Below, piece by piece: positions 5,749 to 41,475 of a stretch of DNA of 42,132 nt. Every line of letters begins with the position of its first letter. Positions within the stretch are counted from its first letter, which is position 1. This stretch comes from Candidatus Pullibacteroides excrementavium (GTDB lineage Bacteria; Bacteroidota; Bacteroidia; Bacteroidales; P3): NCBI GenBank assembly GCA_017694335.1, contig JADIMZ010000013.1, positions 1-42,132 of the forward strand, written 5' to 3'. A program made the translations under genes and the position numbers. The notes under the pieces were generated by a model that saw nothing but the letters and a program-made list of their open reading frames with translations, ran no database searches and was not told the DNA's origin.

Positions 5749-6050
5749 TAAAATATAGTGAAAGTCGAGAGCAGAGCCGGAATCTCGGCATAGCGAAAGC
5801 ATTATTGGAGCGGAAAGCCAAGCTTGCTTGAGCTTGCCAATCCAATAATGCTTTCAGCAATGCCAAACGAAGTTTGGCGCTATGCCGAGACGCATCCTAT
5901 ATTGTCAACTCCGTTGACAAATATTCGTCAAAGAACACAAGCTCGCTTTGCCTCTGCATTCGGCTTGCACTGCCTTTGTCGAACCGCATCCTATATCGTC
6001 AACTCCGTTGACAAATACCTCTCCCGAAAACCAAGCTCGCTTTTTACGCC
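5749..6050. repeat. Composite interspersed repeat: nested palindrome, second repeat relative and a 33-bp direct repeat
   Basis: tctcggcatagcg (5783-5795)/cgctatgccgaga (5878-5890) and gaaagcattattgga (5795-5809)/tccaataatgctttc (5841-5855) inverted repeats; cgcatcctatatYgtcaactccgttgacaaata at 5891-5923 and 5985-6017. Confidence 0.8.
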
Positions 6051-6468: not shown

Positions 6469-6684
6469 AACATCTTGCTTTTAATGATTTAAACTTCCAT
6501 ACAAAAACCGGCAAATCCGCCAGCCTCCAATTTGCTAAGATAGCACAAATTTCAGTGCTTGCAGGATTCTTCCCAACATACAGAAAGAGGAAGCGCGGTT
6601 TTCCACACTTCCTCTTCCTATCACCTCTCATCAAGAGGATCTTATCACACGCCGCGTCGCAAACAGAGTCTGCAATAAACGCCG

Positions 6685-6732
6685 CGCCTCGGCAAAGTTC
6701 AAGCAAGCTTGGCTCTGCACACGGCTCGCGGT
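6685..6732 (+). repeat. Divergent copy of interspersed repeat (copy D)
   Basis: cctcggcaaagttcaagcaagcttggctctgcacacggctcgc aligns with ctcggcataatcaaagcaagctttgcttctgctctcgactttcgc of copy B. Confidence 0.6.
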
Positions 6733-7923
6733 TTATTTCAACACGCCGAGTTCCTTGCCAATCTTGGTAAAGGCAGCCACGCACTTGTCGAGGTGGGCCT
6801 TTTCGTGGGCAGCCGAAACCTGAACACGGATACGAGCCTGCCCCTTAGGCACAACCGGGTAATAGAAACCGGTAACGTAGATGCCTTCTTCCTGCAATTT
6901 GGCAGCGAACTTCTGCGAAAGCGGAGCATCGTACAGCATCACGGCGCAGATAGCCGATTGCGTAGGCTTGATGTCGAAGCCGGCTTCCTTCATCTTGCCG
7001 ACGAAGTATTCGGTATTGGAATGCAGCTTGTCTTGCAAATCGTTGCTTTCGCTGATCATGTTGAACATTTCGATAGCGGCAGCAGCTACCATCGGAGGAA
7101 TGGAGTTGGAGAACAGGTACGGACGCGAACGCTGACGCAGCATGTCGATGATTTCCTTGCGACCGGTGGTGAATCCGCCCACAGCTCCGCCGAAAGCCTT
7201 GCCCAAGGTACCGGTCAGGATGTCCACCTTGCCACGGCAGTTGAACTGTTCGGTAACACCGCGACCCGTCTTGCCTACAACACCGGCCGAGTGGCTTTCG
7301 TCCACCATAACCAAGGCATCGTATTTTTCAGCCAAAGGCAGAATCTTGTCCAGAGGAGCCACATTGCCGTCCATCGAGAACACACCATCGGTAACGATGA
7401 TGCGGAAACGCTGGGCCTGAGCTTCTTTCAAGCAGTTTTCCAGTTCGGTCATGTCGCCGTTGGAATAGCGGTAACGTTTAGCCTTGCAAAGACGAACCCC
7501 ATCGATAATCGAAGCGTGGTTCAAGGCATCGGAAATGATAGCGTCCTGATCGGTGAAAAGAGGTTCGAACACACCGCCGTTGGCATCGAAGCAAGCCGCA
7601 TACAGGATAGCGTCTTCCGTCCCGAAGAATTCGGCAATCTTGCGTTCCAATTCCTTGTGCAGGTCCTGGGTACCGCAGATGAAACGGACCGAACTCATGC
7701 CATAGCCTCTTTCGTCCATGGCTTTCTTGGCGGCAGCAATCAGACGCGGGCTGTTGGCCAAGCCCAAGTAGTTGTTGGCGCAGAAGTTCAGAACTTCCTG
7801 ACCGCCGTTCACTTTGATGTCCGCGCTTTGAGGGGTGATGATCACACGTTCGTCTTTGTAAAGACCGGCATCACGAATCCCTTTGAGTTCCTCTTGCAGG
7901 AATTGTTGAAATTTTCCGTACAT
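6733..7923 (-). CDS. kbl: Glycine C-acetyltransferase (2-amino-3-ketobutyrate CoA ligase)
   Basis: 396 aa; FCANNYLGLANSPRL, VMVDESHSAGVVGKTGRGVTE, GTLGKAFGGAVGGFTTG motifs. Confidence 0.95.
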   Translation of the reverse strand: MYGKFQQFLQEELKGIRDAGLYKDERVIITPQSADIKVNGGQEVLNFCANNYLGLANSPRLIAAAKKAMDERGYGMSSVRFICGTQDLHKELERKIAEFFGTEDAILYAACFDANGGVFEPLFTDQDAIISDALNHASIIDGVRLCKAKRYRYSNGDMTELENCLKEAQAQRFRIIVTDGVFSMDGNVAPLDKILPLAEKYDALVMVDESHSAGVVGKTGRGVTEQFNCRGKVDILTGTLGKAFGGAVGGFTTGRKEIIDMLRQRSRPYLFSNSIPPMVAAAAIEMFNMISESNDLQDKLHSNTEYFVGKMKEAGFDIKPTQSAICAVMLYDAPLSQKFAAKLQEEGIYVTGFYYPVVPKGQARIRVQVSAAHEKAHLDKCVAAFTKIGKELGVLK

Positions 7924-7960
7924 GGTATTTTGGTTTTAAATCGTTAGCTTCTACGAGCGC

Positions 7961-8046
7961 GCAAAGATAGCGAAAGTCGAGCGCAGAAGCAAAGCTTGCT
8001 TTGATTATGCCGAGACCAAGCTATCTTCGGCGACAGCCAAAGATAC
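7961..8046 (-). repeat. Promoter-bearing interspersed repeat copy A
   Basis: gcaaagatagcgaaagtcgagcgcagaagcaaagcttgctttgattatgccgagaccaagctatcttcggcg is almost identical to the reverse complement of 34747-34818. Confidence 0.85.
7962..7993 (-). promoter_or_regulatory. Predicted primary sigma (sigma-ABfr type) promoter for kbl
   Basis: TTTG (7993-7990) N20 TATCTTTG (7969-7962) on - strand, ~39 nt upstream of kbl ATG. Confidence 0.65.
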
Positions 8047-31057: not shown

Positions 31058-32341
31058 TCAGCACCCGAACAATTCCTTGAACAAAGGTACTAAATCGGTC
31101 TTTTCCCAAGCAAAGAAATCCACTTTCTTGAAGTAATGCTCCTGCTTTCCGATTTTCTTGACCTTGGTGGTATCGTCCTGATAGAACACCTCAACTTCTT
31201 CAGTGTAGGGCTTGCGGCCGAAATGCCCGTAGGAAGCCGTCGGGCCGAATATCGGGTTGCGAAGCCCGAAACGCTTCACAATCGCATAAGGCCGCAAATC
31301 TACGTTCTTGCGCAGAATCTCGGCAATCTTGCCATCGGATATCTTCAAGTGCGAAGTGCCGCAGGTATTCACATACAGGCCCACCGGTTCGGCCACCCCG
31401 ATGGCGTAGGCCACCTGCACCATCGCCTCGTCGCAGACCCCGGCCGCCACCAAGTTCTTGGCGATATGCCGCATCGCGTAAGCCGCCGAACGGTCCACCT
31501 TCGAGGAGTCCTTGCCCGAGAAAGCCCCGCCGCCATGCCCGGATCGGCCGCCATAGGTATCCACGATAATCTTGCGGCCCGTCAAGCCGGTATCCCCGTG
31601 CGGCCCGCCAATGACGAACTTGCCCGTCGGATTCACCAAAAGACGGAACTTCTTGTCGAACAACGCCCGGATATCCGGCGTCATCTTATCCAATACCGCC
31701 GGCAAAAGGATATTGCGCACGTCTTCGGTAATCGTCTCCCGCATTTCCTTTTCCGAAGCAAAATCATCGTGCTGGCAGGAGAGAACCAAGGTATCGATGC
31801 CTTCCGGTTTCCCCTCATCCGAATAGCGAATCGTCACCTGGCTCTTGGCATCGGGCCGGAGATACGTCATCTGCTTGCCTTCGTGACGGATGCGATCCAG
31901 CTCCTTCAAAATGGAATGCGCTAAATAAATCGGGAGCGGCATGTACTCCTCGGTATCCCTGCAGGCATAACCGAACATCATGCCTTGGTCGCCCGCGCCC
32001 TGGTCTTCTTCCTTTTTACGCTCCACCCCTTGGTTGATGTCGGGCGACTGGCTGTGAATAGTCGAAATCACCCCGCAGGAATTGCCTTCGAAACGGTATT
32101 CCCCTTTGGTATAGCCAATTTTAATAATCGTGTTCCGCGCCACGTTCTGCACATCCACATAACCATGGGTCTTGACTTCCCCGGCGCACACCACCAAACC
32201 CGTCGTCACCAAGGTTTCGCAAGCCACTTTCGCCTGTGGGTCCTGACGCAGAAACTCGTCGAGCAAGGCGTCCGAAATCATATCGGCCACTTTGTCGGGA
32301 TGCCCGGCCGATACGGACTCTGAAGTAAATAAATAAGACAT
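31058..32341 (-). CDS. metK: S-adenosylmethionine synthetase
   Basis: 427 aa; [47 protein letters not shown]. Confidence 0.97.
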
Positions 32342-32761
32342 ATTCCTTGTTTTTCCGGAACCCGTCTACATTGTCAAACAGATTCCAAGTTGTTCTTTGG
32401 CCAAATGCCGGGATTGCATCGAAGCGGTTCGCGGATTTGCACGAAACGAATAGCCCCTGCAAGCCCGAAAGTCTGGAAGATTCGGAAGATGCCTGAAATC
32501 AAAAGAAAAAGCACAAGATACAACGACAAGGATTCTACGAATTCCGGATTATCATGTAAGATGAACCAAAAGCCACAGATTGCCAATCGCTCCGGCCTCT
32601 GTACGTCCGCTTCAGGTTCCGGTATCCCGTATCGTGCATTTTAGCTTTTTTTCGTGTGGTAGCAAGCAGCCAAATCCTTCCACATGCGTTGCAACAAGAA
32701 TCTTTTTCCCGCAACGCGGATGCAAAATTAATAAAAATTTTCGCTTTTTATAAAAAAGTAG

Positions 32762-34739: not shown

Positions 34740-34818
34740 TTGGCTGCGCCGAAGATAGCTTGGTCTCGGCATAATCAAAGCAAGCTTTGCTTCTGCTCTC
34801 GACTTTCGCTATCTTTGC
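34740..34818 (+). repeat. Promoter-bearing interspersed repeat copy B
   Basis: Reverse complement is nearly identical to 7961-8034. Confidence 0.85.
34786..34817 (+). promoter_or_regulatory. Predicted sigma-ABfr type promoter upstream of aminotransferase gene
   Basis: TTTG (34786-34789) N20 TATCTTTG (34810-34817). Confidence 0.6.
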
Positions 34819-35010
34819 GGTCGGGAAAATCCGGCCAATCCGCGACTGTCCGAAAAACAACCGGATTCCTGCATTATCAACCCGGACGCATCCGGAGAGC
34901 AGACATCTACTGCCTGCCGAAGGGATGGGTATCCAACCAAACGATAGCCCCACCCGTCATCCAGCCAGCCTTGTCCCGGCTTTCAGGGTCGTCCTAAAAA
35001 CCAAGAAAAC

Positions 35011-36213
35011 ATGTCAGTATTAGCAAAGCGCGTATTGGAAATGGCTCCCTCTGCCACCTTGGGCATGAGCCAACGGAGCCGCGAAATGCAAGAACGAGGC
35101 ATCGATGTAATCAGCCTCAGCGTCGGCGAACCCGACTTCAACACGCCGGAAGTCATCAAACAGGCCGGTATCGACGCCATCAACAACAACTTCACCCACT
35201 ATCCTCCCGTGCCGGGTTACATGGATCTGCGCAAGGCCATCTGCGCCAAGCTGACCCGCGACAACAAGCTCACTTATTCACCTAACCAGATTATCGTTTC
35301 CAACGGGGGCAAGCACGCCATCATCAATGTGCTCCTGGCCATGATCAACCCGGGCGACGAAGTAATCATTCCCGCTCCCTGCTGGGTTTCCTATCCTGAA
35401 ATGGTGAAATTCGTGGAAGGCACGCCTATCCTGGTTCACGCCGGCATCGAAGACGACTTCAAGATTACGCCCGAAAAGCTGGAAGCCGCCATCACGCCCA
35501 AGACGAAATTATTGATTTTCAACAGCCCGAGCAACCCTACCGGCATGGTTTACAGCCGCGAGGAACTCAAAGCCATTGCCGATGTGCTGGCCAAGCATCC
35601 CGATGTATATGTCCTTTCGGACGAAATCTACGAATACATCGTATTTGAAAGCAAGTTCGAAAGCCTGGCGCAGTTTGAAGAAATCAAGGCTCGCGTGATT
35701 ATCATGAACGGGGTTTCCAAGGGCTATGCCATGACCGGCTGGCGTATCGGTTACATCGCCGCTCCGGCCGAAATCGCATCGGCCTGCAACAAGATTCAAG
35801 GCCAGATGACCTCTGCGGCTTCTTCCATCGCCCAGAAGGCTGCGGTAGCCGCATTGATGCAGGATCCGACCAAATCGGAAGACCTCAAGAACATGGTGGC
35901 CACTTTCCGCAAACGCCGCGACATGATGATCGAGAAGCTGCGCGAAATCCCCGGCTTCAAAGTCAATGTTCCCACCGGCGCGTTCTACATCTTCCCCAAC
36001 ATCGAAGGCCTGATTGGCAAGAAGTTCAACGGCAAGGAAATCACCTGCGGCGACGACTTGGCCAACTTCCTCCTCGATGAAGGCCATGTGGCTCTGGTAG
36101 GCGGAGATTCTTTCGGCGACCCGCACAGCATCCGCATCTCTTACGCTACCAGCGAAGACAAGCTGATGGAAAGCGCCCGCCGCATCAAGGAAGCGGTGGC
36201 CAAGCTGCAATAA
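35011..36213 (+). CDS. Pyridoxal phosphate-dependent aspartate aminotransferase
   Basis: 400 aa; NSPSNPTGMVYSREEL, VLSDEIYEYIVFE, NGVSKGYAMTGWRIGY. Confidence 0.95.
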   Translation: MSVLAKRVLEMAPSATLGMSQRSREMQERGIDVISLSVGEPDFNTPEVIKQAGIDAINNNFTHYPPVPGYMDLRKAICAKLTRDNKLTYSPNQIIVSNGGKHAIINVLLAMINPGDEVIIPAPCWVSYPEMVKFVEGTPILVHAGIEDDFKITPEKLEAAITPKTKLLIFNSPSNPTGMVYSREELKAIADVLAKHPDVYVLSDEIYEYIVFESKFESLAQFEEIKARVIIMNGVSKGYAMTGWRIGYIAAPAEIASACNKIQGQMTSAASSIAQKAAVAALMQDPTKSEDLKNMVATFRKRRDMMIEKLREIPGFKVNVPTGAFYIFPNIEGLIGKKFNGKEITCGDDLANFLLDEGHVALVGGDSFGDPHSIRISYATSEDKLMESARRIKEAVAKLQ

Positions 36214-41389: not shown

Positions 41390-41392
41390 CAC

Positions 41393-41475
41393 TTTTTCCA
41401 ACGAGTTTTCATGCCTTCACCGCATTTTTTCCAACGAGTTTTCATGCCTTCACCGTATTTTTTCCAACGAGTTCC
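41393..41475. repeat. Three 33-bp-period direct repeats upstream of AAA/DUF4143 gene
   Basis: ttttttccaacgagttttcatgccttcaccgYa; ccaacgag at 41398, 41431, 41464. Confidence 0.95.

Follow-up and report, generated by a model that had tools for sequence, protein, structure and literature searches.

The dispersal of nearly identical promoter sequences to positions upstream of unrelated genes was reportedly described by Matus-Garcia et al. in 2012 as 'promoter propagation in prokaryotes'. That study is cited in PMC9208149 and PMC4596501, and the term mobile promoter is in use. Among defined elements, the Correia repeat enclosed elements (CREE) of Neisseria insert at TA sites, also disrupt genes, and carry a promoter that is partly completed by flanking DNA (PMC2649163). 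The BrickBuilt MITE of Porphyromonas gingivalis displayed promoter activity in E. coli reporter tests and was proposed to be a mobile promoter (PMC4596501). Promoters of Bacteroides follow the sigma-ABfr consensus, with TAnnTTTG at -7 and TTTG near -33 (PMC7366714). The repeat described here carries these same boxes, its predicted promoter being the end of a repeated element, and is represented in the window (the whole stretch of 42,132 nt analysed) by two near-identical copies, A and B. With a probability of roughly 0.7, copy A belongs as a single unit to a dispersed hairpin family that propagates promoters and is inserted one-way behind existing -7 boxes.

Copies A and B and the kbl upstream region

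Copy A (7960-8032, minus strand) and copy B (34747-34819, plus strand) share 73 nt at 99% identity on opposite strands, and the family to which they belong goes far beyond chance, which confirms the recurrent repeat of the original prediction. Copy A is a single hairpin unit of 68 nt (7962..8029, minus strand; covariance hit of 81.4 bits) with the outer arms CGAAGATAG and CTATCTTTG. Read toward kbl the full unit is CGAAGATAGCTTGGTCTCGGCATAATCAAAGCAAGCTTTGCTTCTGCGCTCGACTTTCGCTATCTTTG, that is, CGAAGATAG...GC-TTTG-N20-TATCTTTG. The TTTG-N20-TATCTTTG arrangement had been predicted for its kbl-facing end, where the -33 box TTTG (7993-7990), assigned from sequence and conservation, lies 20 nt 5' of the -7 box TATCTTTG (7969-7962). 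The latter forms the 3' end of the unit. It is separated by 38 nt from the ATG of the downstream gene at position 7923, and copy A is thus aimed at this gene from close by, as had been claimed. The gene itself (6733..7923, minus strand) was correctly named as kbl, encoding glycine C-acetyltransferase (TIGR01822, 688 bits, cutoff 493). The extent originally given to the element (7961-8046) holds only in part: the unit is present there, but the unit proper covers no more than about 68 nt. The remainder consists of the linker GCTGTCGC (8030..8037, minus strand) and, beside it, a second TATCTTTG (8038..8045, minus strand), which the original prediction had left out and which proves to be pivotal. 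This upstream box is presumed to be the -7 box of the original kbl promoter, and it is also found in the relative G002 (L231/L208).

The unit of copy B (34750..34817, plus strand) has its -33 TTTG at 34786-34789 and its -7 TATCTTTG at 34810-34817, and is preceded by the linker GCTGCGC (34743..34749, plus strand) with a degenerate box, ATAAGGGTTG, just 5' of it. The gene downstream of it encodes an aminotransferase (35011..36213, plus strand; best NCBIfam model aspartate transaminase, with a score below the cutoff of that model) and starts at a distance of 193 nt. Only copy A is near its ATG. Also in the window are a partial or decayed unit with the end TGCCTTTG (5929..5978, plus strand; nhmmer 30.9 bits) and a weak fragment of a unit 3' end, TATATTTT (5751..5779, minus strand; nhmmer 18.8 bits, E = 5e-4). 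A two-copy tandem direct repeat of 33 bp with 97% identity occupies 41390-41455.

Anatomy, distribution and orientation of the family

Units are about 65-80 nt long and have MITE-type features, being short, non-coding, dispersed, site-polymorphic and equipped with terminal inverted repeats. Their outer arms are complementary to each other and paired at 7-8 of 8 positions in 103 of 108 units; in the inner stem the sequence is variable and pairing is kept. Both sides were changed in 13 of 16 pairs, with 96% of the cells paired. None of 500 shuffles reached this covariation, and shifting the partner abolished the signal. Such compensatory change may reflect selection on structure or be a trace of template-switch repair of palindromes.

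The family comprises subfamilies in which the left arm varies in step with the end box (GAAGGCAG/CTGCCTTTC, GATAAA/TTTATTTT). Those ending in TGCCTTTC, TTTATTTT or GGGGCTTT are devoid of a promoter-like end and often aimed at gene 3' ends. Non-promoter subfamilies may have a role at such positions, for example as terminators; one instance is a divergent unit (6679..6738, plus strand; nhmmer 39.4 bits) that ends in TTTATTTC, lies at the 3' end of kbl and occurs at the same place in G001 (C5:88181-88248). The TGCCTTTC/TGCTGTTC-ended subfamily (L046 7654-7721, L079 2237-2293, L090 6672-6737, L169 7912-7975), often directed toward gene 3' ends, is embedded in a longer conserved repeat with GCGTACTTTTG-TTGCTGCTCCGCAG upstream and GTGA...CGCAACGAAGCAGAT downstream. 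Another dispersed repeat, about 220 nt long, has the inverted ends AGAAGCTGTTTAAAATTT and AAATTTAAACAGCTTCT (L006 1364-1710, L145 about 5988, L108 about 8089, L190, L192, L233, L175, L221 and L193). Four hairpin units lie inside it at one internal site, where other copies of the same repeat are without a unit; it could be the carrier of some units, not of most.

The genome of copy A is a draft of 165 contigs that is 84% complete. A genome-wide collection of copies, proposed along with the original prediction, yielded 65 places by BLAST and about 90 matches to a covariance model built on 30 units; iterated nhmmer found 105 places in the 1.74 Mb searched, about two thirds of the genome. All 13 genomes of the genus contain the family, with 8-147 covariance-model matches each, and so do 20 of 149 genomes from the order, which are spread across many families and several of which have at least 30 units. 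DNA-pattern matches were found in Muribaculaceae MAGs, Candidatus Aphodosoma, Bacteroidales MAGs and the isolate Bacteroides ndongoniae (L204), a cultured species in which direct testing is therefore possible. The distribution is patchy, some lineages being high-copy and most being without units. Several units are located at or near the contig ends of draft genomes (L004, L005, L009, L014, L232); the family is therefore likely to interrupt short-read assembly and to be undercounted.

Neither the plasmid and phage collections searched nor viral contigs contained a match to the family, and spread on plasmids or phages was rejected on these grounds. Likewise, the repeats were rejected as a known RNA family because Rfam at curated cut-offs matched only tRNAs and a SAM-II element, with a single chance-level match near the repeats under permissive filters. 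The SAM-II riboswitch (32631-32689, minus strand; RF01726, 49.5 bits, cutoff 44) lies upstream of the ORF at 31058-32341 (minus strand).

Orientation and box conservation had been named as checks on the promoter interpretation, and both came out in its favour. The last unit of an array ends in the -7 box TAnnTTTG in 113 of 149 cases. Relative to genes called with a home-made dicodon caller, last units of this type were 7 times co-directional, 16 times divergent and never anti-directional or convergent in their own genome; in other genomes 28 were co-directional and 1 anti-directional (p = 1e-7, the copies of the family being phylogenetically non-independent), 33 divergent, none convergent and 1 within a called gene. 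Thus, 35 of 36 face a gene start in same-direction gene pairs. An earlier count per array, covering all scores, gave 13 co-directional cases and 1 anti-directional, the latter a weak 18-bit match called inside a gene. Units of the own genome with other ends (5 co-directional, 9 anti-directional, 3 divergent, 2 convergent) have no gene-start bias. The median distance from the box to the called start, which is approximate, is 77 nt. Purifying selection could have contributed to the orientation bias.

With the units masked, the ordinary promoter motif of the genome is TTG-N20-TA[TC][CT]TTTGC (266 sense versus 117 antisense occurrences). A TTG precedes the box by 19-21 nt in 71 of 89 last units as compared with 68 of 266 ordinary TAnnTTTG sites, and the spacing of the latter peaks at 19-20, the same as in the units. 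Within the copies of the own genome the -33 TT(G) holds 1.3-2.0 bits, neighbouring stem positions mostly 0.1-1.0, so that the -33 TTG forms a conserved island in a variable hairpin. Conservation of the -7 box is partly due to class selection; that of the -33 box is free of it. These data support the interpretation of the copy A family as a promoter repeat, and the units are predicted from their sequence to be promoter-active.

The junction with the upstream box and variation among relatives

First units are located directly behind another TAnnTTTG in 6 of 11 cases in the own genome and in 28 of 40 elsewhere (34 of 51), against a background of 3.9% of comparable windows. The linker between this box and the first unit is 0-16 nt long and lineage-specific. 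Together with the box and the left arm it frequently forms a palindrome (TTTG-AGTGCTCCGCACT-CGAA), and in some lineages it is a single base. The upstream boxes are diverse (TATC, TACC, TAAC, TATA, TATT) while the unit end is nearly always TATC, which argues that the unit brings its own box. They resemble ordinary promoters in having a TTG at 19-21 in 8 of 34 cases, a proportion equal to that of generic sites. A C follows the last box in 56 of 113 cases, as in 171 of 266 ordinary promoters, but inner boxes in only 1 of 42 (p = 4e-9). Taking together the box directly 5' of the units and the C after the last one, insertion seems to have occurred just 3' of a working -7 box and in one orientation. 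The most economical account is that the TAnnTTTG^C of an ordinary promoter was opened at the position marked ^ and received the linker and unit there. Duplication of the whole -7 box as target was rejected because the upstream boxes are unlike the end box of the unit. TTTG flanks the unit on both sides and fits a 4-bp duplication, though it may be the unit's own, and the rest of the box is not duplicated. Decay of upstream boxes after insertion is not claimed, inner boxes being mostly intact (37 of 42 are TATCTTTG).

The kbl site is occupied by one unit in the own genome and in G002 and by three in G011 (BLAST places, with the box found). G008 was rejected as an empty site since it contains one diverged unit. 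Empty sites were defined by contiguous BLAST alignments (81-83%) together with absent model matches. The kbl site of G010 is without a unit, and its joined flanks align straight across the junction. In G001 the complete match list holds no covariance-model match upstream of kbl, and the gap is filled by other sequence. At site L021, which has two units in the own genome, the flanks of G001 align through with no model match. Unit numbers per genome at other sites are 1, 1 and 2 (L060), 3 and 2 (L052), 1, 1 and 4 (L055), and 1, 1 and 2 (copy B); among relatives the number of units at a given site thus ranges from 0 to 4. The extra unit of G001 at L060 is of a different hairpin subtype, and simple tandem duplication was rejected as the origin of every array on this ground. 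Deletion may have occurred in some relatives, but the patchiness and the differing unit numbers and subtypes make it unlikely as a general account. The dispersed, portable promoter module of the original prediction is therefore supported by orientation, boxes and presence or absence at the kbl site, with 'portable' resting on two observations, site polymorphism and patchy distribution; it does not extend to the subfamilies devoid of a promoter-like end.

Taking into account these data we propose that the 3' arm of the unit doubles as a Bacteroidota -7 box, and that the stem contributes the -33 box, a TTG located in its 3' half about 20 nt ahead of the -7 box, so that every such unit would end in a complete promoter of the sigma-ABfr type. 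Insertion would take place immediately downstream of an existing promoter's -7 box (TAnnTTTG^C), with the unit in a single orientation and with a short linker. The old box would be left upstream and the new -33/-7 pair would meet the old start region, whereby the position of the promoter is kept and its sequence becomes that of the unit. As the unit ends in the kind of box behind which it inserts, head-to-tail addition would be possible and could give rise to arrays of 1-4 units. At kbl, such an insertion would have placed transcription under the predicted unit-derived promoter that now seems to drive it.

Alternative explanations and relation to known elements

This proposal builds on sequence anatomy, orientation, box conservation, covariation and site polymorphism as directly observed; we infer promoter activity, the gain of units by insertion, and a placement due to targeting and not to differential survival. 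Units might instead land anywhere, with boxes surviving only where they face genes. The more frequent anti-directional placement of other-ended copies (9 against 5 co-directional and 2 convergent in the own genome) is in line with such selection, but many of these copies belong to the subfamilies whose left arm has changed in step and are not decayed versions of TATCTTTG. Since the second TAnnTTTG directly upstream is left unexplained as well, we regard random insertion followed by selection as unlikely. Still less probable is an ordinary MITE, that is, a non-autonomous remnant of a cut-and-paste insertion sequence that ends in short inverted repeats, duplicates a 4-bp TTTG target, lands at random and is kept where harmless or useful. 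The outer arms would then be the inverted repeats, the TTTG on both sides is compatible with the duplication, and site polymorphism is accounted for. However, next to the upstream TTTG there is no fixed terminus but a linker that differs between lineages, the whole TAnnTTTG extends beyond the flanking TTTG far above background, and no promoter-ended unit lies between convergent genes.

The hairpins are imperfect, numerous and strictly oriented with respect to the strand, and they lie flush behind a fixed tetranucleotide, all of which recalls IS200/IS605 and REP biology. Under such a model a Y1 (HUH) transposase (TnpA-REP or IS200/IS605-like) would move the hairpins by cutting single-stranded DNA after a short recognised tetranucleotide, here TTTG. 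Moreover, TnpA-REP subclass 2.6 of Bacteroidetes is flanked by atypical hairpins that recur at other places in the genome (PMC6006769). PF01797 is the profile with which the known REP and IS200 enzymes, this subclass among them, were gathered (PMC6006769). In the 13 genomes of the genus, 10 of which are at least 90% complete with low contamination, it nevertheless gave no match to a Y1 transposase; among eight carriers from other families it matched in two and not in six. A RAYT/IS200 mobiliser was rejected on this basis. In addition, the GTAG/CGTC tag at the foot of a 20-40-nt palindrome is absent from the units, which are 65-80 nt long and have CGAAGATAG/CTATCTTTG as their foot, and a REP/REPIN-type origin appears very unlikely. 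We consider it equally improbable that the hairpin itself is functional as a regulatory RNA or DNA structure, for example an attenuator or RNase III site, with the promoter-like end following from its location. The strong compensatory change would be expected for such a structure, and downstream hairpins in arrays would be transcribed from the upstream promoter. Yet template-switch repair of quasi-palindromes could equally yield covariation, the hairpin of a single-copy site lies upstream of its own presumed start and hence outside that transcript, the -33 TTG is more conserved than pairing would require, and Rfam is without a match at curated cut-offs.

A bolder version of the proposed insertion behind -7 boxes is tentative, and we hold it to be doubtful. 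It assumes a mobile element that targets the -7 box itself and inserts one-way behind the boxes of working promoters, possibly in DNA opened by RNA polymerase and with pairing between left arm and box. By restoring its own promoter the element would spread cheaply through essential promoters and replace host promoter sequence genome-wide. If the proposal is true, many gene promoters in these gut bacteria derive from one spreading repeat, unrelated genes share promoter sequence, and promoter strength is adjustable by gain or loss of units. For a mobile element, the position just behind a -7 box would be an uncommon target, and one that would explain how repeats of high copy number remain harmless.

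In open-access text we found no publication on this family or on any element inserted behind -7 boxes. With REP/REPINs and their RAYT (PMC3733652, PMC6006769) the units have in common that they are dispersed intergenic palindromes of high copy number, single or clustered; they differ in being longer, in having a predicted promoter aboard, in the absence of the GTAG/CGTC foot and in residing in a genus of which 13 genomes gave no match to a Y1 transposase. Mobile promoters as treated by Matus-Garcia et al. (2012) are reportedly a statistical class, whereas the units are a single defined family marked by its hairpin anatomy, its insertion point and its arrays. Like BrickBuilt (PMC4596501) they are intergenic, MITE-like, linked to a promoter (a predicted one in their case) and found in Bacteroidales. 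BrickBuilt, however, is bidirectional and has 23-nt tandem repeats enclosed by a leader and a tail, whereas the units are hairpins of 65-80 nt that have one directional promoter end and no array of 23-nt direct repeats. CREE (PMC2649163) resemble them as short, non-coding inverted repeats present in many copies upstream of genes, with a promoter at the end and polymorphism between strains. They belong to a different phylum, no similarity is claimed, and the CREE hallmarks (TA target duplication, neisserial inverted repeats) are absent from the units, the junction of which is TTTG^C. In contrast to CREE, the units possess their own -33 and -7 boxes, nearly always face gene starts and are located behind an existing -7 box. 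What is new here is this anatomy, with units directly behind another -7 box and a short, often palindromic linker between them.
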